Made by a program: the position numbers and the translations under genes | Notes under the pieces: generated by a model | Database searches by the model: none | What the model was told of the DNA's origin: nothing | The model's input: only the letters and a program-made list of their open reading frames with translations | Assembly: GCA_035946615.1 (NCBI GenBank) | Contig: DASYZB010000050.1 | Span: 1-42,166, forward strand | Length of the DNA: 42,166 nt | Direction: 5' to 3' | Source of the DNA: Verrucomicrobiia bacterium | GTDB taxonomy: Bacteria; Verrucomicrobiota; Verrucomicrobiia; Limisphaerales; UBA8199 | Shown: piece by piece, positions 22,631 through 33,017 of the stretch | Position numbering within the stretch: the first letter of the stretch is position 1 | Layout of the letters: every line of letters begins with the position of its first letter

Positions 22631-24286
22631 TTATCTGCGGTCCAAATCCCCTTTCCTTTGCGTTCTGTGTGTTCTTTTGCGGCTCATAATCGTCCCGGCA
22701 ATTTTCTCCACCAGCACTGGGTTCACAAGAAGTCCCAGCCTTGCCAGGTTTTGCAGGCTGTGATCGAGGCCTTCACGCAGTCGCTTTTCCATTTGTTCGG
22801 GCGCCGTTACGGGCGCCCCCTGGTCCGGTAAAGGGACCTTGCCGGATTGGACCAGGTCTGCCAGTTGGCGCGCAATCTGTTCGCGGTCGCGGGTGCCATC
22901 AAGCAACTTGAGCAACTCCTGCCCCAGGCGGTCTTCGATCTTGAGGGTCAGATGCCGCAACGAAACCACCACCGGGCCCTGCTGAATCTGGAGCCGGGCC
23001 AAAGGGCTGGCGACGGGGCGCGCGGAGGGTTTGGTAACAAACACAGAAGGATGGGCGTGCAAATCGACGAACCCAACCATGTAGCAGCGCAGGAGAAATT
23101 CCCCCAAATCCTGCGCATCCATTTGTATCGAAACCGCCGGCCCGCCGTCCTCGCGTCCCGCGCGTGAACGGGCCTGCTCAAGCAACTCCTGAAAATGCAC
23201 GCGCCGGGGCCAAACCTCGCCCAGGAGGCCCAGGGCGCACTTGAGGGCCGGATGGCTGGTGGCGATGACGGCTTTGCCGCGTTGGAAATCCTCAATTGCC
23301 GGCCCGGTAAGGCCCGCCTTTGGCTTTGCCGGGCGGCTGTCTGCCGCAATCCATAACGCCTGCGCCCGCTCCGGCTTCAAGTCCCGCTCGAGAGCGCGTT
23401 CTTCGTGGCAGAGCAAGGTTTGGCGAAACGAGCGACCTTCGATGAAATCAAGATACTGTTCCCGCGCCACCAGGTTGCATTGCTCGAGGTTGCGCAGGAC
23501 GCCCTGGGCTTCGTCTGTCAGCCCTGCAACCTGCATGTCCGTCAAATCCGCTTCAGCCAGGAACTGCAGTTTGTGGCGCGCGGCTGCTTCGGCGAATTCG
23601 TAAAAATAGAATGGCTGGTTGGCGGCGCTCAAGTCGTCATGAAAGAATCCAGCATCCACATAACGCTGGATACGGTCGAATTGCTGGCGCAGAACCTGTT
23701 GCCAAAGACTCTCCTTGGCTTTGGCCGTCGCAAGGAATTTAATCAAAATGCGCGCCTGTCGAACCTGCTCCTGTGGTTCAGGGAACTGCCGCACATGAAA
23801 GCGGATCATGCTTCGGACAAGGTCCCGCAGGTGATTGCCCGGATAGGAATTGTAGCTGATGTAAGCGATGCCCTGCTCAGCCAGGTGCCCCCGGCATATT
23901 GCCAGTATCTTCTCGCGCGCCTCGGGAGGCACCCACGAGTAGAGCCCGTGGGCGATAATGAAATCGAACTGACCCAGGTCCGCCGGGGTTTCCAACAGGT
24001 CCATTTGCTCGAGGCGCACATTGGCCAGATTCAGCGCCGCAACGACCTTTTTGCCCTTGCGGATGGGCGCGCTCGCCAAATCCAATCCGCAGAACTGGCT
24101 CTGCGGCAGCGTAAGGGCCATCGCGGTGATATTCGTTCCATCGCCGCATCCCAATTCGAGCACCCGCGCGCTCTCCACCCGCGCCGGTGTCAGGCCGAAT
24201 AAATGGCCGATGGTGGCGAGTCGGTCCGGATGCGTCTGAGGATAAACCGCGCTCGGGTAGGGAACATTATCGTATGCGGTAGGCAT
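22631..24286 (-). CDS. SAM-dependent methyltransferase with regulatory domain
   Basis: From the ATG at 24286 the product is 551 residues. An N-terminal class I methyltransferase has motif I VLELGCGDG at 42-50 and the acidic GLDLA strand. It is followed by a methyltransferase regulatory domain (around 215-300, FYFYEFAEAA and the LQFLAEADL region) and a C-terminal winged-helix-like segment (about 310-510). This architecture matches the group with a regulatory domain, sometimes annotated as protein lysine methyltransferases, but the target is unproven. The last 17 or so codons, ending SRKRTHRTQRKGDLDRR, run through a dispersed repeat and may be an accidental tail. It stands alone. Confidence 0.88.
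   Translation of the reverse strand: MPTAYDNVPYPSAVYPQTHPDRLATIGHLFGLTPARVESARVLELGCGDGTNITAMALTLPQSQFCGLDLASAPIRKGKKVVAALNLANVRLEQMDLLETPADLGQFDFIIAHGLYSWVPPEAREKILAICRGHLAEQGIAYISYNSYPGNHLRDLVRSMIRFHVRQFPEPQEQVRQARILIKFLATAKAKESLWQQVLRQQFDRIQRYVDAGFFHDDLSAANQPFYFYEFAEAAARHKLQFLAEADLTDMQVAGLTDEAQGVLRNLEQCNLVAREQYLDFIEGRSFRQTLLCHEERALERDLKPERAQALWIAADSRPAKPKAGLTGPAIEDFQRGKAVIATSHPALKCALGLLGEVWPRRVHFQELLEQARSRAGREDGGPAVSIQMDAQDLGEFLLRCYMVGFVDLHAHPSVFVTKPSARPVASPLARLQIQQGPVVVSLRHLTLKIEDRLGQELLKLLDGTRDREQIARQLADLVQSGKVPLPDQGAPVTAPEQMEKRLREGLDHSLQNLARLGLLVNPVLVEKIAGTIMSRKRTHRTQRKGDLDRR
22656..22686 (+). repeat. dispersed 31-bp repeat, copy 1
   Basis: The sequence 22656-22686 matches 28969-28999 at 28 of 31 positions (shared GTGTTCTTTTGCGGCT). 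It overlaps the 3' end of the methyltransferase gene on the opposite strand, where it encodes a basic tail. Confidence 0.7.
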
Positions 24287-24510
24287 GGAATCGGAAGGTG
24301 TTAGGCTCAGCAGCGCCGCAATAAGCAAAGCCGTTCTTGTGCCAAACCCGGATCATATTCTGAGCGCGTTTATGCTCTCAATGCGGCTATGGCCCCGTCA
24401 AGCGCCGCCTCCGCTTTTCTTTGAGAACTGGGCAGCAAAGAGCAGCCGCATTTTCCAGGGGCGCTCCGCCTGGCTGATGCCCATTGGCAACCCTTTTCAC
24501 CACAGAGGCA

Positions 24511-24684: not shown

Positions 24685-26379
24685 TCATGGTTCTCCCTGG
24701 CTTGGCTCTGCGGGGGCATTGGCCTGGGCCAGGGCCCTTGCGCGCGCGGCTTCCATTTCGGCTTTGACTTGAACAATCCTGGCGCGGATGAGTTCGCGAT
24801 TCTCCTCCTTGGCAGCCAGGAGTTCGAGGGTGAGTTCCTCGAGGCGCCGTTCGTAGGCGAGGTTTTGCTGCTTGATTTGCAGCTCGATCCGCGTGAGCCG
24901 CTCATCCACTGCGCGCGCTTTGTGAGTAGCGGCCTGCTGCGCGTTGAGCAATTCTGACCGGTCGGCTACCAGCCTGCGCAGCACTTTCTGTTTAAGCCAA
25001 CGTTGCAGGTGCGGAATCATGCCTTTCCGCACGAGCGCCTGGGTGCGTTCTGCTTTTTCTTCGGCGGCCAATGCGCGCTGCTGCCAGGCGGATTGGGTCT
25101 GGGTCGCGCCCGGGTTTTCCAGGTGGATGACCGGATGGGGCGCCGCCAATGGGGCCGCGTGTTCAGCAGCCGAACTGGTGCTCGAAAGAGGCGCCATGAC
25201 GACCGTGTAGGATGAGGAAACCGCCTGGGGATTATCGAAAGTTTCAGGGATAAGAGCAGACGGGCCAACGCGCAGTTGGGGCCTTCTGGCGAAAAACCAA
25301 AGGAATGCCACCGAAGCGGCCAGCGCGCCCGAACCAGCCGCCAGCCACCAGGGGAGGCGCGAGCCAACCACTCCCCCCAGGCCGCCCGGGTTTGCCGCGG
25401 CCTCACGGGCAAGGGCCCTCGAGCGGCGTTCCAGTTCATCGGCGCGCGTGGCGAAACTGGCCGCGACCTTTGCCGGGTCCAATTCCAGGCTGCACGTGAC
25501 CGGGTAATGCGCGGCAGCGGGTGCGCTGCGGAAGTCCAGCGGAAAAGCGGTGGATTCGCTGAGGATGTAGTCTGCGGCCATGCCGGGCTGATCGCGGTTG
25601 GGTGTCAATGTCGTTCTTGGATTCGATGCCTTCCCCAGGTCGGTATCGACAAATCCAGCATCGAGCAATCGGCGCAATGTTTCCTCGCGCGCGTCTGCGC
25701 CGCTTCCCACCGGCGCATCAAATGTCGCAGCAATTACGAAGCTCTGCACCCGGTTGGCTTCCCAGTGCCGGATAGAATCCACTTGCGCCAACAATTGGCT
25801 GACGGCGGCCTCCGCAGAGAGACCGCTGTCGAACTCGACGGACAAAACCCCAACCCGCACCTTACCGGCTTGCATGGCAACGAAAGCAAATCCGCCGGGG
25901 AGCTTCCCGCCGCCAGAAGGCCGGCGGGGTGCGCCCGTCCCAGGGCGCAGCGGGTTGCCACCAGGCGGTTGCCACAGTTCAGCCCACGAAAAATAGGCCT
26001 TTTCTCTGGACAGAAATGCCACTTGGCCGGCTTCTGAGGCTCCGATCGAAGCGTCATGAAAGGCGGAGCAGAGCACGACATTATATTCGCCTGGCCCGAG
26101 CGCCTCAGCCAGTTGCGCGCAGGTTTGCCAATCCCGGACGTGTTGCAGGGCAATCAGGTCGGGATTCAGCTCTTTGAGCGTGGCAGCCTGCTGGAGGAGC
26201 CAATCGCGATTTGTTGTCGCGCCGGCATTGGGCGCTTCAAGGTTCCAGGTTGTAAGGCGCAGGGTCTGGCCAAAACAGGCGGTGGTTATGGCCACTGCCA
26301 AACAAAGGGCTAAGCATCCCAACACCCTTTGCCAGCGGGTTGCGCGAAGGGCCTCGGTTTTGCGCGGGGATTGTTTCAC
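24685..26379 (-). CDS. membrane-anchored endonuclease/phosphatase-fold protein, probably inactive
   Basis: The product has 564 residues, starting with GTG at 26379. It has a signal-like helix (18-38) and then an endonuclease/exonuclease/phosphatase fold to about 295: LRLTTWNLEAP (Asn46), PDLIALQHV, IAATFDAP, ADYILSE and AAAHYPVT. The family's metal-binding Glu (normally LQE) is His80; the catalytic GDFN is ATFD; the DH pair is Ala290-His291. Only Asn46, Asp270 and His291 remain, so it looks like a pseudoenzyme. A membrane helix at 344-364 and a long coiled coil (about 425-550) follow, ending in a Pro/Ala tail. It is 3 bp downstream of the secreted two-domain gene, forming an operon. Confidence 0.75.
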   Translation of the reverse strand: MKQSPRKTEALRATRWQRVLGCLALCLAVAITTACFGQTLRLTTWNLEAPNAGATTNRDWLLQQAATLKELNPDLIALQHVRDWQTCAQLAEALGPGEYNVVLCSAFHDASIGASEAGQVAFLSREKAYFSWAELWQPPGGNPLRPGTGAPRRPSGGGKLPGGFAFVAMQAGKVRVGVLSVEFDSGLSAEAAVSQLLAQVDSIRHWEANRVQSFVIAATFDAPVGSGADAREETLRRLLDAGFVDTDLGKASNPRTTLTPNRDQPGMAADYILSESTAFPLDFRSAPAAAHYPVTCSLELDPAKVAASFATRADELERRSRALAREAAANPGGLGGVVGSRLPWWLAAGSGALAASVAFLWFFARRPQLRVGPSALIPETFDNPQAVSSSYTVVMAPLSSTSSAAEHAAPLAAPHPVIHLENPGATQTQSAWQQRALAAEEKAERTQALVRKGMIPHLQRWLKQKVLRRLVADRSELLNAQQAATHKARAVDERLTRIELQIKQQNLAYERRLEELTLELLAAKEENRELIRARIVQVKAEMEAARARALAQANAPAEPSQGEP

Positions 26380-26382
26380 GGA

Positions 26383-27621
26383 TTAATCGGCTGTAATGGC
26401 AATGAGAAAAGGCGCGGCGATGCTCATCTCGGAGACGTAATCGATGCTGTCGATTTCCATGTCAGGAACAAGATTGGTCCAAGTCGTCAGGAAAAGCCGC
26501 AAAGAACGGCCCTGGCTCTTGCTCAACTCGTTCTCTCCGGTCCACACCACCTTGAGGTCCTTTCCGGGTTCAGGTTCTCTCTCGAGTTTATGCCAGTCCC
26601 GCACCGCCTCACCATAAACGATGGGGATTTCCAGCCGCATGGGCGAGGAGGCATAATGGATAATATAGCTGCCAATCTCTTTTCCTTCCTGCCGCGCATT
26701 TCCAAAAGCGGCTGCATGCAGGAAATGCAGGCGCCGGCATTTTTGATGCACGGGGATTCCCTTGATCGCAGCAGGGAAATTAGTTGCCGAGCGGGAAGTG
26801 CTTCCCAGTTGGACAACGCCGCGGACATCAAATTCCACACCCGCGAAGGTCTGCAGCCCGGAAGGCAACTCCGCCAGGTTATTGGCGATGGCGCCAGCGG
26901 TGCGGCCATGCCAGGATTCGGTCAAGGTCGCATTGTAAAACGGAGTCAGGTCGAGCAAGCGCTCCGGCGCATTGGCATCGCGCGGCGGGAATTGCCTTGG
27001 CTGAGCGGTCTCCACCGGCGGCTCAGTGGTCGTGGGAGAGTCATTGGCAAAAAGGCTGGCTGCAGTGAGCCTCGCGATATTGATGCGGTTCGTAAACACC
27101 GTCTCCCACATGGGCGGGCTTTCATAGATAGTCCCGTCGAAGGCCAGGTTGAGCGCCACTCCATGGTGACGGCAACGCACAATCGGCACCACCGAACCCA
27201 AAAGACCCATCTGCCGCCGTTTCCATTCCCGCCGCGTGCGGTTGGGGGCGTTGCGGGCTGAGTTGCCCAGAGGCAGCAGACAGAACTCGAACAGGTAGGA
27301 ACACGGGATTTTAGGGTCTGCCAGGGGTGGACTCTCAACTTTGCCCGTCCGCCGGCACACCGGGCAGAGCAACACATTCGGGTCATCGAGGTATTTAGGG
27401 ACCAAGTCCGAAAGCCAATTCGGCAGGTCCTTGTGGTCAGCCTCGTAGGCCTGGATGGCCTTGTAAATAATTTTCAGGTGCTCAATGCACTTTTGCTTTT
27501 CTTGCGCCGCGAGGTCAGCGCTCTGTGTCGCAGGGGTGGTTTCGGCGCCACGGGCCGAGGAGATAATGATTGCCAACGGGAGACCAGCCAGCATTGCCCA
27601 GCGCCCAATGCCTTGTCTCAT
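26383..27621 (-). CDS. secreted two-domain protein with pseudopilin-like segment
   Basis: This 412-residue protein has a signal peptide (1-25). Residues 43-90 (CIEHLKIIYKAIQAYEADHKD, then LPNWLSDLVPKYLDDPNVLLCPVC) resemble the pseudopilin G-type C-terminal fold without its N-terminal methylation helix. The part from about 215 to the end is a second module with LDLTPFYNATLTESW, FAGVEFDVRGVVQLG, LHFLHAA, IPIVYGEAVRDW and VVWTGEN. I have the impression this module recurs in secreted verrucomicrobial and lentisphaeral proteins, but I know no function for it. It is first in the operon with the pseudo-nuclease. The ATG at 27621 is clear. Confidence 0.7.
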   Translation of the reverse strand: MRQGIGRWAMLAGLPLAIIISSARGAETTPATQSADLAAQEKQKCIEHLKIIYKAIQAYEADHKDLPNWLSDLVPKYLDDPNVLLCPVCRRTGKVESPPLADPKIPCSYLFEFCLLPLGNSARNAPNRTRREWKRRQMGLLGSVVPIVRCRHHGVALNLAFDGTIYESPPMWETVFTNRINIARLTAASLFANDSPTTTEPPVETAQPRQFPPRDANAPERLLDLTPFYNATLTESWHGRTAGAIANNLAELPSGLQTFAGVEFDVRGVVQLGSTSRSATNFPAAIKGIPVHQKCRRLHFLHAAAFGNARQEGKEIGSYIIHYASSPMRLEIPIVYGEAVRDWHKLEREPEPGKDLKVVWTGENELSKSQGRSLRLFLTTWTNLVPDMEIDSIDYVSEMSIAAPFLIAITAD

Positions 27622-29082: not shown

Positions 29083-31560
29083 ATGAGAAACAGGCCCGTC
29101 GCATTCAGTTACCTGCGAAAAGCGGCAGCGGGCTGCCGCATTCCAAGGGGCTGTCGCGGCATGCAGCGCCCCTGGCCAAACCCGGGATTCTGGCCTCGTG
29201 CAGGGCTTGCGATTGTTCTGAGTTGCCGGTTGGGTGTCGCGGCGCCCTCCCCAGCGGCTTCCTTGAAGGTCGATTATGACCGCGAGGTCCGCCCGATCCT
29301 GAGCCAAAACTGCTATAAATGCCACGGACCGGACGACGCGGCCAGGAAAGCCAATCTCCGTTTTGATTTGCGCGGGGTAGCTTTGCAGCCGGCAAAATCG
29401 GGGTTGACGCCGATTGTTCCCGGCGCCCCGGACAAAAGCGAGCTGGTGGCCCGCCTTACCGCTCTCGATCCGAAACGGCACATGCCACCGCCAGACTCGG
29501 GCAAAAAGCTCAATGCCGCCCAGGTTGAGACGCTGCGCTCATGGGTTGCCCAAGGCGCTCCTTACGCGATGCACTGGGCTTACGTTAAGCCCACGCGTCC
29601 GGCCCTGCCTGAAGTGATGGACAAAACCTGGCCACGCAACCCGGTTGACCGCTTCATCCTCGCCCGGATCGAGCAGCAAGGGCTCAAGCCCAGCCCGCCT
29701 GCGGACCGGGCGACCCTGATTCGGCGGGTCTCGCTGGACCTCACTGGCCTGCCGCCCACACCCGGGGAAATGGAGGCGTTCATAAACGATAAGAGGCCAG
29801 GCGCTTACGAGCGGCTTGTGGACCGCCTGCTGGCAAGCAGCGCCTACGGCGAACATTGGGCGCGCATGTGGCTGGACCTGGCGCGCTATGCCGATTCAGC
29901 CGGTTATGCCGACGACCCGCCCCGAGTCATCTGGGCTTACCGCGATTACGTCATTAAATCATTCAATTGCAATAAGCCTTTTGACCAGTTCAGCATCGAG
30001 CAGATTGCCGGCGACCTGCTGCCTGACGCGACCGAAGAGGACCAAATTGCCACGGCGTTCCATCGGAACACGATGACCAATCATGAAGGGGGCCCCGACC
30101 GTGAGGAATTCCGCAACGCCGCCATTGTAGATCGCGTCAACACCACCATGGCGGTCTGGATGGCCACCTCGATGGCCTGCGCCCAGTGTCATCACCATAA
30201 GTTTGATCCCATCTCGCAACAGGAGTACTTCCGGCTCTTTGCCATCTTCAATAATACCGAGGATGCCGACCGGAGCGATGAGGTCCCCGTGCTGGAGCTC
30301 CCCACACCCGAGCAAAAGCAAGAGCAGGCGAAACTGAGAAGCGAACTCGCGCAGCTCGAGAAAGAACTCGGAATTACGCTGGATGACCCAGGGACCAATC
30401 AGGTTCCGGCGGACCTCAAACCCAAGCAGGAACGGCTGGCGCAGCTCAGGAAGCAATTGGCGGATATTAGGCCCAATACCGTGCCGATTATGCGCGAGTT
30501 GACCGGAGATAAGCGGCGCCAAACCCACGTGCAAATCCGAGGGAATTTCCGCGCAACTGCCGAGGAAGTAACACCCGGCGTTCCAGCCGTTTTTCCTCCG
30601 TTGCCCAAAGGCGCCGCACCCGACCGTCTGGGTCTTGCCCGCTGGCTGGTGGATGAAGACAACCCGCTGACTGGACGCGTGATTGCAAACCGATTCTGGG
30701 AACAGATTTTTGGGACGGGCATCGCGCGAACGAGCGAGGATTTCGGCTCACAGGGGGACCTGCCCACGCACCCGGAGTTGCTCGATTGGCTGGCGACGGA
30801 ACTGCTGGCCCAGAAGTGGGACATCAAGGCCTTCTTAAGGCTGCTGGTCACCTCGGCTACTTATTGCCAGTCATCGCGCGTTACACCGGAATTGCTTGAA
30901 CGCGACCCGGATAATCTGTTGCTGGCGCGTGGACCGCGTTTCCGGCTAACGGCGGAGGAAGTGCGGGACCAGGCCTTGTTTGCCAGCGGCTTGCTCAGCC
31001 GCAAGATGTACGGGCCGCCGGTTCGTCCGCCCAGCCCCTCCTTGGGTCTGAGCGCGGCTTTTGGCGGCTCATTGGATTGGAGCACCAGCGAGGGGGAGGA
31101 TCGGTATCGGCGGGCCATTTACATCGATTGGCGTCGCACCAGTCTTTATCCCTCGTTGGCCACCTTTGATGCCCCGAGCCGGGAAATCTGTGCTTTGCGC
31201 CGTCCCCGCAGCAACACGCCTTTGCAGGCCCTGGTCACCTTAAACGATCCGGTTTATATCGAGGCGGCCCAGGCCCTGGCCCGGCGCATGGCCCAGGCGC
31301 CCGGCTCTGTCGCGGCCAAAGCCGGCTATGGCTTTCGATTGTGCCTGGCCAGACAGCCACACCAATCCGAGCTTGGCAAGCTGACCGCATTCTTTGATGA
31401 ATCTCGCGCCGATTATGCCCGAACGCCGCAGAAGGCCCAAACAATCGCCACTAAACCCCTGGGACCAGCCCCGGAAGGCATTCCCATTGCAGAACTGGCC
31501 GCTTGGACCGTTGTGGCTAACGTGCTATTAAACTTGGATGAGACCCTGATGAAACCTTGA
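29083..31560 (+). CDS. PSD1-type protein: cytochrome c + DUF1549 + DUF1553
   Basis: This 825-residue exported protein has a planctomycete-type cytochrome domain with CYKCH at 77-81 (haem ligand His81), then a DUF1549 region (about 140-350, AYGEHWARMWLDLARYADSAGYADD) and a DUF1553 region (about 500-780, LARWLVDEDNPLTGRVIANRFW and the ALRRPRSNTPLQALVTLNDP stretch). A coiled segment lies at about 405-465. Such proteins, paired with DUF1501 partners, are abundant in Planctomycetes and Verrucomicrobia and are often near sulfatases, but their function is unresolved. The ATG at 29161 (MQRPWPNPGFW) may be the true start; the first 26 codons run through a palindrome at 29122-29139. Confidence 0.88.
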   Translation: MRNRPVAFSYLRKAAAGCRIPRGCRGMQRPWPNPGFWPRAGLAIVLSCRLGVAAPSPAASLKVDYDREVRPILSQNCYKCHGPDDAARKANLRFDLRGVALQPAKSGLTPIVPGAPDKSELVARLTALDPKRHMPPPDSGKKLNAAQVETLRSWVAQGAPYAMHWAYVKPTRPALPEVMDKTWPRNPVDRFILARIEQQGLKPSPPADRATLIRRVSLDLTGLPPTPGEMEAFINDKRPGAYERLVDRLLASSAYGEHWARMWLDLARYADSAGYADDPPRVIWAYRDYVIKSFNCNKPFDQFSIEQIAGDLLPDATEEDQIATAFHRNTMTNHEGGPDREEFRNAAIVDRVNTTMAVWMATSMACAQCHHHKFDPISQQEYFRLFAIFNNTEDADRSDEVPVLELPTPEQKQEQAKLRSELAQLEKELGITLDDPGTNQVPADLKPKQERLAQLRKQLADIRPNTVPIMRELTGDKRRQTHVQIRGNFRATAEEVTPGVPAVFPPLPKGAAPDRLGLARWLVDEDNPLTGRVIANRFWEQIFGTGIARTSEDFGSQGDLPTHPELLDWLATELLAQKWDIKAFLRLLVTSATYCQSSRVTPELLERDPDNLLLARGPRFRLTAEEVRDQALFASGLLSRKMYGPPVRPPSPSLGLSAAFGGSLDWSTSEGEDRYRRAIYIDWRRTSLYPSLATFDAPSREICALRRPRSNTPLQALVTLNDPVYIEAAQALARRMAQAPGSVAAKAGYGFRLCLARQPHQSELGKLTAFFDESRADYARTPQKAQTIATKPLGPAPEGIPIAELAAWTVVANVLLNLDETLMKP
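29122..29139. repeat. palindrome inside the 5' end of the PSD1 gene
   Basis: GCGGCAGC at 29122-29129 and its exact reverse complement at 29132-29139 flank two bases. It resembles intergenic REP-like palindromes and lies upstream of the alternative start at 29161, which makes the first 26 codons of the longer reading frame doubtful. Confidence 0.55.
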
Positions 31561-31568
31561 ATTAATTT

Positions 31569-33017
31569 ATGGACCCGGGATTCGAAACCATTCAGCAGGT
31601 CACCAGGCGAAATTTCCTCCGAAGCACTGGTCATTTTTGTTTGGGAGCCATTGCATTTGCCAGTCTGCTCGAACACGAGGCCGAGGGGGCGAATGCTCCC
31701 AACCCGCTCGCTCCAAAAGCTCCTCAATACGCGCCAAAGGTCAAACGAGTCATTTACCTGCACATGTCGGGCGGACCACCGCACCTGGATTTATTCGATT
31801 ACAAACCAGAGTTGGTGAAATGGAACGACAAGCCCTGCCCGGACGAGTACCTCAAGGGACGGCGTTTTGCCTTCACCACCGGCGTCCCAAAGCTTATGGG
31901 AACACCCCGCCAATTCTCGCAGCATGGGCGCAGCGGGATTTGGATGTCTGACGCCATCCCGCGCCTGCATGAGGTCGCTGACGAACTCTGCGTCATCCGT
32001 TCGCTCAATAGCGACCAGTTCAATCACACACCCGCCGAACTCTTACTTTTTACCGGTTCGCCCCGCCAAGGCCGCCCTTCAATGGGGTCCTGGGTCACTT
32101 ACGGTTTGGGAACCGAGAACGAGAATCTGCCCGGGTTCGTGGTCCTCATTTCGAGCGGGACTCAACCCAGTGCCGGTCCGGCCGCCTGGGGCAGCGGGTT
32201 TCTGCCTTCGGTCTTTCAGGGAGTGCAATGCCGTTCCAAGGGGGACCCCGTCCTGTACGTATCGGACCCCCCGGGCATGGACCGGTCGATGCGGCGCAAG
32301 ACCTTGGATTTGTTACGCGATTTAAACGAAGAACAGGCCCGCGACCTGGGCCACCCGGAAACCATCACCCGCATCGCTCAGTATGAGCTGGCTTACCGGA
32401 TGCAGATTTCCGTCCCGGAAGTGATGGATATCTCACGCGAACCCAAGGAGATGCTCGAGACCTACGGCGCCAGGCCCGGCGAGGCCAGCTTCGCCAATAA
32501 CTGTCTGCTCGCGCGCAGGCTGCTGGAACAAGGCGTGCGCTTTGTGCAGTTGTTCGATTGGGGCTGGGACTTTCACGGGGTGAGCGAAAGCGAGGATATC
32601 CGGGATGGTTTGACCAAGAAATGCGCGCGAACGGACCGGCCAGTGTCGGCGCTCATCCGGGACCTGCGCCAGAGAGGGTTGCTGGATGAAACCTTGATTG
32701 TTTGGGGCGGCGAGTTTGGCCGCACCCCGTTCCGGGAAGGGCGCACTTCGACGGGACACATTCTCGGGCGCGATCATTATCCGGATTGCTTTACCATTTT
32801 CCTGGCCGGCGGCGGCATTAAACGGGGCATCACTTTCGGTGAAACGGATGAACTCGGATTCGCCGTTACCAAAGACAAGGTAACAGTGCACGATCTCCAG
32901 GCAACCATCCTTCACCTGCTCGGCTTCAACCACGAGCGCCTCACTTACCGGTACGAAGGACGCGATTTCCGCCTGACGGATGTCGAAGGCCAAATTGTCA
33001 GGGGCATTTTAACGTGA
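31569..33017 (+). CDS. DUF1501 protein with Tat signal
   Basis: The product has 482 residues. The N-terminus has a twin-arginine motif (TRRNFLRST, residues 12-20) and a hydrophobic segment, so it is probably exported folded. The alkaline-phosphatase-like DUF1501 core follows: YLHMSGGPPHLDLFDYKP, GRSGIWMSDAIPRL, LIVWGGEFGRTPF and GRDHYPDCF. It starts 8 bp after the PSD1 stop, the usual two-gene operon. Metal-binding Asp and His positions typical of the fold are retained, but no enzyme activity has been assigned to the family. Confidence 0.9.
   Translation: MDPGFETIQQVTRRNFLRSTGHFCLGAIAFASLLEHEAEGANAPNPLAPKAPQYAPKVKRVIYLHMSGGPPHLDLFDYKPELVKWNDKPCPDEYLKGRRFAFTTGVPKLMGTPRQFSQHGRSGIWMSDAIPRLHEVADELCVIRSLNSDQFNHTPAELLLFTGSPRQGRPSMGSWVTYGLGTENENLPGFVVLISSGTQPSAGPAAWGSGFLPSVFQGVQCRSKGDPVLYVSDPPGMDRSMRRKTLDLLRDLNEEQARDLGHPETITRIAQYELAYRMQISVPEVMDISREPKEMLETYGARPGEASFANNCLLARRLLEQGVRFVQLFDWGWDFHGVSESEDIRDGLTKKCARTDRPVSALIRDLRQRGLLDETLIVWGGEFGRTPFREGRTSTGHILGRDHYPDCFTIFLAGGGIKRGITFGETDELGFAVTKDKVTVHDLQATILHLLGFNHERLTYRYEGRDFRLTDVEGQIVRGILT

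Follow-up and report, generated by a model that had tools for sequence, protein, structure and literature searches.

The window analyzed here, a 42,166-nucleotide stretch of a Verrucomicrobiia bacterium of the order Limisphaerales (assembly GCA_035946615.1, contig DASYZB010000050.1), carries a gene pair whose downstream member, P1, joins a degenerate EEP (endonuclease/exonuclease/phosphatase) domain to a membrane helix and a coiled-coil tail, and whose upstream member, P2, encodes a secreted two-domain protein. Comparative sequence analysis points to a protein family in which the coiled-coil tail is the constant part and the EEP domain one of several exchangeable heads; it likewise supports this architecture, a lost active site, a conserved gene pair, co-occurrence of the tail with a further gene (c1), fusions between pieces of P1 and P2, and purifying selection on the dead domain in one genus other than that of the window. 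P2 lies at 26383..27621 (412 residues), and 3 nt (26380..26382) separate its TAA stop from the GTG start of P1 (24685..26379, 564 residues), all on the minus strand. These coordinates, the strand and the spacing agree with an original prediction, made from the sequence alone, in which a dead enzyme domain was proposed to serve as a sensor or scaffold paired with a surface protein.

A degenerate EEP domain on a membrane-anchored coiled coil

P1 begins with a signal-peptide region (residues 1-37, 26269..26379; hydropathy places the signal-peptide-like stretch at about 16-40), followed by the EEP domain (residues 38-301, 25477..26268). A membrane helix (residues ~345-364, 25288..25347; hydropathy and AlphaFold2 model) has two Arg residues after it, and the constant tail (residues 436-556, 24712..25074; tail profile) is largely a coiled coil at residues 456-554, with block values of the predicted local distance difference test (pLDDT) of 75-92 over residues 461-550. 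Both the membrane helix and the long coiled coil had been called in the original prediction. The positive-inside rule is an established guide to membrane topology, and by this rule P1 would expose its EEP domain on the outer side of the inner membrane and keep its tail in the cytoplasm (N-out/C-in).

The EEP domain matches PF03372 at E 4.2e-6 (27.1 bits versus a cut-off of 24.5), and neither a kinase, HAMP, MCP or cyclase domain (Pfam) nor, at E<=1, the 7TMR-HDED ectodomain (PF07697) is found in P1. The AlphaFold2 model is of modest quality (mean pLDDT 62, predicted template-modeling score 0.46), and it matches Tdp2 (5inn_B; Z 19.3, root-mean-square deviation [rmsd] 3.1, 215 aligned) and human APE1 (6p94_A; Z 16.5, rmsd 3.5, 211 aligned). 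Neutral sphingomyelinase and a mannosyl-6-phosphatase are also similar; DNase I is not among the 50 structural matches listed. By profile and fold, P1 is thus a member of the EEP superfamily, as had been predicted, though not as an active enzyme.

Across 39 EEP domains we compared nine active-site positions (N, E, H, N, D, N, D, D, H). Window P1 reads N-H-E-G-T-D-D-A-H, with six of the nine lost. The substitutions named earlier are real, with H80 in place of the Glu, T219-F-D221 in place of Asp-x-Asn (D to T219, N to D221), and A290-H291 in place of Asp-His (D to A290); two further changes, H to E182 and N to G186, fall in the H-L-K-x-N strand, and N46, D270 and H291 are retained. The motif regions of the 39-row alignment are unambiguous apart from loose parts in G005, G049, and G143 (G000 is the window's genome, the other G numbers are genomes compared, and L numbers are fetched loci). 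The assignments of Asp-x-Asn and Asp-His rest on this alignment, the profile match to solved structures being too weak there, and a PDB sequence search with the intact EEP domain of G056 alone gave no match at E 1e-3. For the Glu, profile alignments agree on the column, which falls on the Glu of both 4ruw and Tdp2, and we rejected an alternative alignment that would restore it. Three other EEP proteins of the window's genome keep the Glu, Asp-x-Asn, and Ser-Asp-His by reading, so the loss in P1 does not reflect general drift.

Loss of the active site among relatives

Among 320 genomes of the order, the EEP lineage of the window comprises 21 proteins in 18 genomes, with a further partial EEP match in G128. 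None of the 18 tailed members keeps all nine letters, and 17 have lost at least two. By comparison, an outgroup of tail-less relatives from outside the order but within the phylum (18 of the 19 best of 56 non-window EEP matches) keeps all nine letters in 18/18 and has the tail in 0/18; their reading frames span 284-423 residues in 17 cases and 1639 in one (L211). A tail-less sibling within the lineage, G056, also keeps its whole active site. The remaining two of the 21 proteins are a G025 copy cut by a contig end and a dead G137 copy fused to the P2 module.

In a tree of 38 EEP domains, built after removing the nine active-site columns and leaving out L075, which is cut by a contig end, the window's lineage forms one clade against other EEPs (support 100/97). 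Eleven EEPs, the P2 clade, group at 94/84, slightly below the program's star, and all 11 have lost the Glu, which has become H, Q or G. Genus g24 (G025 and G068-G071) keeps the Glu in four of six proteins, and these four have S at the first Asp and G at the Asp of Asp-His. Intact G056 groups with g24 and G049 (94/89), and several forks of the tree are weak. Because the residue sets differ between the P2 clade and g24, and because G056 nests with g24, the active site appears to have been lost more than once after the lineage arose, regain of the active site being taken as unlikely. The ratio of nonsynonymous to synonymous substitution rates (dN/dS) in the dead EEP domain of g24 is 0.20-0.32 in 10/10 pairs of five genomes, indicating that selection maintains the domain for a purpose other than the usual catalysis.

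Two other readings of P1 bear on these data. A catalytic site rebuilt from other residues seems highly improbable: there are acidic residues at new positions (E182 and D221), G015 is one letter short, and the genus of G071 keeps most of the letters, but six of nine are gone in the window, and both the lost set and the replacements differ between relatives. It is just as hard to credit that P1 is a decaying gene, for which the irregular loss of active-site letters and a broken tail in G070 could be cited; the frames are open in 10 genera of the P2 clade, dN/dS is 0.20-0.32 in another genus of the lineage, and both the tail and the pairing with P2 are conserved.

A constant tail with exchangeable heads

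We define the coiled-coil-tail family by a C-terminal tail of ~115 residues matching the tail profile. The P1 profile matches 93/320 genomes of the order, reaching the tail in 91 of them, mostly without an EEP match; the matches in G056 and G128 are EEP-only. The window is one of the source rows of the tail profile, so its own match (E 5.9e-45) is by construction, and searches with window P1 or its tail alone also found many others; its tail is 71% identical to that of G140. Outside the order, the tail was found in two genomes (G693 and G407) of one other family of the class, both carrying HDED heads (E 1.5e-18 for one; 9e-4, which falls short of the curated cut-off, for the other).

On 68 tail proteins, Pfam recognizes 7TMR-HDED heads in 33, EEP in 10, GH5 in four, and LamG, FHA and zinc ribbon in one each; with our own profile the EEP heads number 17. 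By eye, there are also three OB-like, three CBM-like, and three zinc-ribbon-like heads, the last without a membrane helix and one of them assigned other than by eye. Kinase, HAMP, MCP, and cyclase domains are not among the 12 Pfam families matching any of the 68. A tail tree (114 columns, 67 rows; L067, L076, L138 and the duplicate loci L187, L191, and L195 left out) is poorly resolved and requires 13 head changes, compared with 31 in shuffles. The GH5 cellulase-like domains are found on this tail at L061, L153, L157, and L158. In the proteins encoded at L145:6711-7496, L146:4209-5018, L147:6688-7413, and L163:5502-6212, the tail carries an FHA or zinc-ribbon-like head and a membrane helix is not apparent, which suggests that the tail may also work in soluble proteins.

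The range of heads bears on the main rival explanation, a structural tether in which the tail serves inside the cell as a scaffold or anchor, and the outer domain can be anything that grips the wall, a glycan or a secreted protein. LamG, GH5, and CBM-like domains are of kinds that bind glycans, and they favor a tether, as do the tail proteins with a zinc ribbon or FHA head and no membrane helix. However, the commonest head is 7TMR-HDED (33/68), which fits regulation better, and the same is true of FHA, a phosphopeptide reader in known proteins. We regard the tether as rather unlikely.

Two partner genes of the tail, c1 and FLW

The c1 protein has a signal peptide, a short coiled coil and one membrane helix by reading, and TPR repeats by Pfam. 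It is present in 24 of 26 genomes with a P1-like match and in two of 32 without one (58 genomes, p 7e-12, in a test that ignores relatedness). The two genomes with a P1-like match and no c1 are G050 and the tail-less G056; the two with a c1 match and no tail are G012 and G046, the G046 match covering the TPR part only. The window's genome encodes c1 at G000:C57:4913-5923 (E 5.6e-82). Among the 70 tail loci fetched from the tail and EEP search matches, which are part of all matches, c1 follows the tail frame downstream at a distance of no more than 165 bp in 30, and in 29 of these it is convergent.

FLW is a secreted-looking protein of ~150 residues that ends in EQKSFLW or close to it (examples are L087:8120-8578 and L142:5569-6270). 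A Pfam scan of one copy gave no match. FLW is found in 56/58 genomes, and this near-ubiquity makes it a possible core protein of the order. In 23/70 loci, none of which is EEP-headed, it is the same-strand gene directly preceding the tail gene; the heads at these loci are HDED, OB-like, zinc-ribbon-like, FHA or none recognized, and the common gene order is FLW, tail, c1.

In G000, G003, G005, G009, G021, and G033, FLW and c1 are direct neighbors and the tail gene is missing from the locus; it is found on a different contig instead, with an EEP head in four, a pilin-like head in G009, and a CBM-like head in G021. FLW and c1 also adjoin in G012, which has no tail. On contig C57 of the window's genome, the two genes converge with ~60 bp between them (L234:4928-6451), at a site that has the appearance of a locus vacated by the tail gene. 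Window P1 thus looks like a tail that moved away from its original site and acquired a different head and secreted partner, the direction of this move being an inference.

The P2 protein and its pairing with P1

P1 adjoins P2 in eight of the 10 P2-clade genomes (G000, G001, G005, G033, G038, G137, G141, and G143). The co-occurrence proposed in the original prediction is therefore borne out in that the pair is conserved in other genomes; the expectation that the same substitutions would recur with it is not, because the Glu is replaced variously by H, Q or G across the P2 clade. A P2-type pilin-like domain is encoded in at least 15 of 18 genomes with a lineage EEP and at least 10 of 302 others (Fisher p 1e-16; the counts are lower bounds among the matches listed, and the test ignores relatedness). 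The P2 of G003 lacks the C-terminal module. G015, G070, and G071 have a different secreted-looking gene, with a Cys-containing end motif, upstream of the EEP-tail gene.

Pieces of P1 and P2 are also fused. In G009 the first domain of P2 is joined straight to the tail, with neither an EEP match nor the module, and this tail nests in the EEP-tail group beside G003 (Shimodaira-Hasegawa-like approximate likelihood ratio test 87; whole group 100). In G137 an EEP domain is fused to the P2 module within a tandem duplication. Contigs C153 and C505 share 23 nt, at the end of the former and the start of the latter, and parts of P2 and P1 repeat at 87% identity, from which we read a tandem duplication followed by fusion; the fusion may also be a chimeric assembly.

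P2 consists of a signal-peptide-like stretch (hydropathy), a DUF1559/pseudopilin-like domain led by a helix at 33-63 (residues 33 to ~194, 27040..27525; model and alignment), and a beta-sandwich module from ~216 (residues 216-412, 26386..26976; model). Its single hydrophobic stretch, residues 5-23, reads by eye as a Sec signal peptide. C45, C86, and C150 of the first domain are invariant in 12/12 aligned sequences, and H152 and D162-G163 form an H-x9-D-G stretch that we take to be the H-x9-DG motif. PF07596 does not match window P2 and only weakly matches three of 12 relatives (best E 0.1), and we did not adopt type II secretion pseudopilin as a label for P2, as the window protein lacks a profile match. 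The original prediction had called this part of P2 a secreted pseudopilin-like segment. Foldseek and VIA matches of the P2 model were taken up by the C-terminal module, with the fold of the first domain barely probed.

Relatives of the first domain occur in Poribacteria and Phycisphaerae metagenome-assembled genomes, and of two such proteins scanned, one has a redoxin domain and the other GH43_C2 and S41 domains. A P2-like pilin domain is combined with a thioredoxin/redoxin domain at L073:8816-10519 (G046) and L197:5842-7260 (Poribacteria). The redoxin fusions and the invariant cysteines together hint at a redox role for some P2-like relatives.

The module had been described as having no known function; it is indeed a separate beta-sandwich, but it is not isolated. 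It forms the C-terminal part of AAA_35/WD40 proteins and of Ser/Thr kinases; the window's genome itself encodes two of these. Occurrences of the module include L242:3129-7304 and L241:3479-6175. The P2 profile matches at least 150/320 genomes, and most of the matches listed cover the C-terminal module only. Residues 219-412 resemble the AziU2-U3 complex (8gs1 and 7wuw; Z 14.6 and 13.9, the next unrelated entry being at 7.8), with rmsd 2.7, 156 aligned, and 17% identity. PDB sequence searches with the P2 alignment, the P2 module or the P1 tail gave nothing significant.

These data also bear on the proposal that the EEP head alone senses a nucleotide, sugar phosphate or nucleic acid, with P2 merely co-expressed. 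The fold is like that of Tdp2, neutral sphingomyelinase and a mannosyl-6-phosphatase, and with N46, D270, and H291 kept in the window a pocket may remain. The other pocket letters, however, vary among genomes, unlike what one conserved ligand would impose, and the conserved P1-P2 pair also speaks against the proposal, which we think improbable.

A proposed docking head for P2

We propose that P1 belongs to a modular N-out/C-in membrane family of Verrucomicrobiota with a constant cytoplasmic coiled-coil tail and an exchangeable outer domain, usually connected through one membrane helix. In the lineage of the window, the outer EEP domain would have been retained, after loss of its metal and catalytic residues, as a binding head; secreted P2 most likely docks on it, and the tail would relay the occupancy or position of the P1-P2 complex to a partner in the cytoplasm, the TPR membrane protein c1 being the best candidate. 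P1 could accordingly act as a sensor or scaffold. This combination, P2 docking on the dead EEP domain and the tail coupling it to a partner inside the cell (c1 as the best guess), is the likeliest of the readings, and we consider it evenly balanced between right and wrong. A broader version, which is possible but which we hold only tentatively, is a transmembrane signaling or coupling system of constant tail and c1, in which heads are swapped together with the upstream secreted partner (FLW for HDED-type heads and P2 for the dead EEP) and a dead nuclease has been recruited as a head.

The loss of active-site letters in 18/18 tailed proteins, adjacency in 8/10 genomes, and purifying selection support the original idea of a dead ectodomain paired with a secreted protein. 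Several observations weigh against it or against our extension of it. G056 is intact and G015 nearly so, with a single D to N change. In G003 and G140, P2 is on a different contig from P1, and at least 10 genomes have a P2-type pilin-like domain without a lineage EEP. Co-occurrence and fusion, as read from sequence, would in any case fall short of proving contact between P1 and P2. For c1, G050 has a tail and no c1 (the genome is 86% complete), G012 has the reverse, and of the P2-clade genomes only G137 has c1 next to the tail, that of G000 being on another contig. The tail frame of G070 is broken, through possible decay or assembly error, and tail-region dN/dS is higher (0.33-0.79) in its four pairs. 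No relative close enough to window P1 for a direct measure of selection was found (EEP domain at best 44% identical), and the dN/dS values are those of g24. Only 10 of 17 tailed EEP heads reach Pfam E 1e-3, so that some of them are very degenerate.

Neighboring genes

Downstream of P1 by ~356 bp is a methyltransferase gene with MethyTransf_Reg and PKMT winged-helix domains (22631-24328, minus strand), which because of this distance is perhaps not part of the P1 operon. On the other side, a PSCyt1-PSCyt2-PSD1 protein is encoded at 29083-33017 (plus strand), followed by a gene with a twin-arginine-like-looking start, a pair usual in planctomycetes and their kin. Scans for promoters (two promoter-like sites versus 1.1 in shuffles) and terminators (eight terminator-like sites versus 5.2) were uninformative. 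PADLOC defense profiles matched none of P1, P2, c1, and FLW at E<=0.01, and we dropped a defense system as a candidate; the mad2 match of the nearby methyltransferase is restricted to its residues 52-174.

Relation to known systems

P1 shares the fold and parts of the core motifs of the EEP superfamily (Tdp2, APE1, and neutral sphingomyelinase) and differs in its six lost active-site letters and the added membrane helix and coiled-coil tail. The 7TMR-HDED ectodomain proteins described here have the same tail and an apparent N-out/C-in layout, with HDED where P1 has EEP. Classical 7TMR-HD proteins have seven helices and an HD domain, neither of which is seen in the tail proteins we read. Chemoreceptors and histidine kinases are one-pass receptors that combine swapped ectodomains with an unchanging coiled coil inside the cell. 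P1 is alike in its variable head and constant coiled coil, but it has no kinase, HAMP, MCP or cyclase domain. P2 shares the leading helix and the H-x9-D-G stretch with DUF1559/pseudopilin-like secreted proteins, and differs in what reads as a Sec-type signal stretch instead of a prepilin helix, along with its marginal PF07596 matches. Its module has the fold of the AziU2-U3 complex at low identity and without a PDB sequence match; the AziU2-U3 enzyme has an aziridine role, which we do not claim for P2.

CPSF-100 belongs to a fold family other than EEP; unlike P1, it is eukaryotic and is not a membrane ectodomain. It is a known pseudonuclease, a nuclease fold without activity in complex with another protein (PMC10211241). 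Pseudoenzymes (reviewed in PMC10211241) and head-swapping receptors are kinds already known. Among the papers listed in searches of the open-licence literature, there is no description of the tail family or of an EEP pseudoenzyme with the layout of P1, which leaves its absence in print unproven.

The EEP lineage offers a natural series from enzyme to binding domain, with 18 tail-less relatives intact, G056 intact, G015 with one loss, and 17 tailed proteins dead in different ways, and selection still acts on the dead domain in the one genus where it is measurable. A second outcome is the definition of a membrane family whose heads are swapped while a partner gene, c1, stays nearly constant, so that the function of the family may be approachable through the tail and c1, whatever head is attached.

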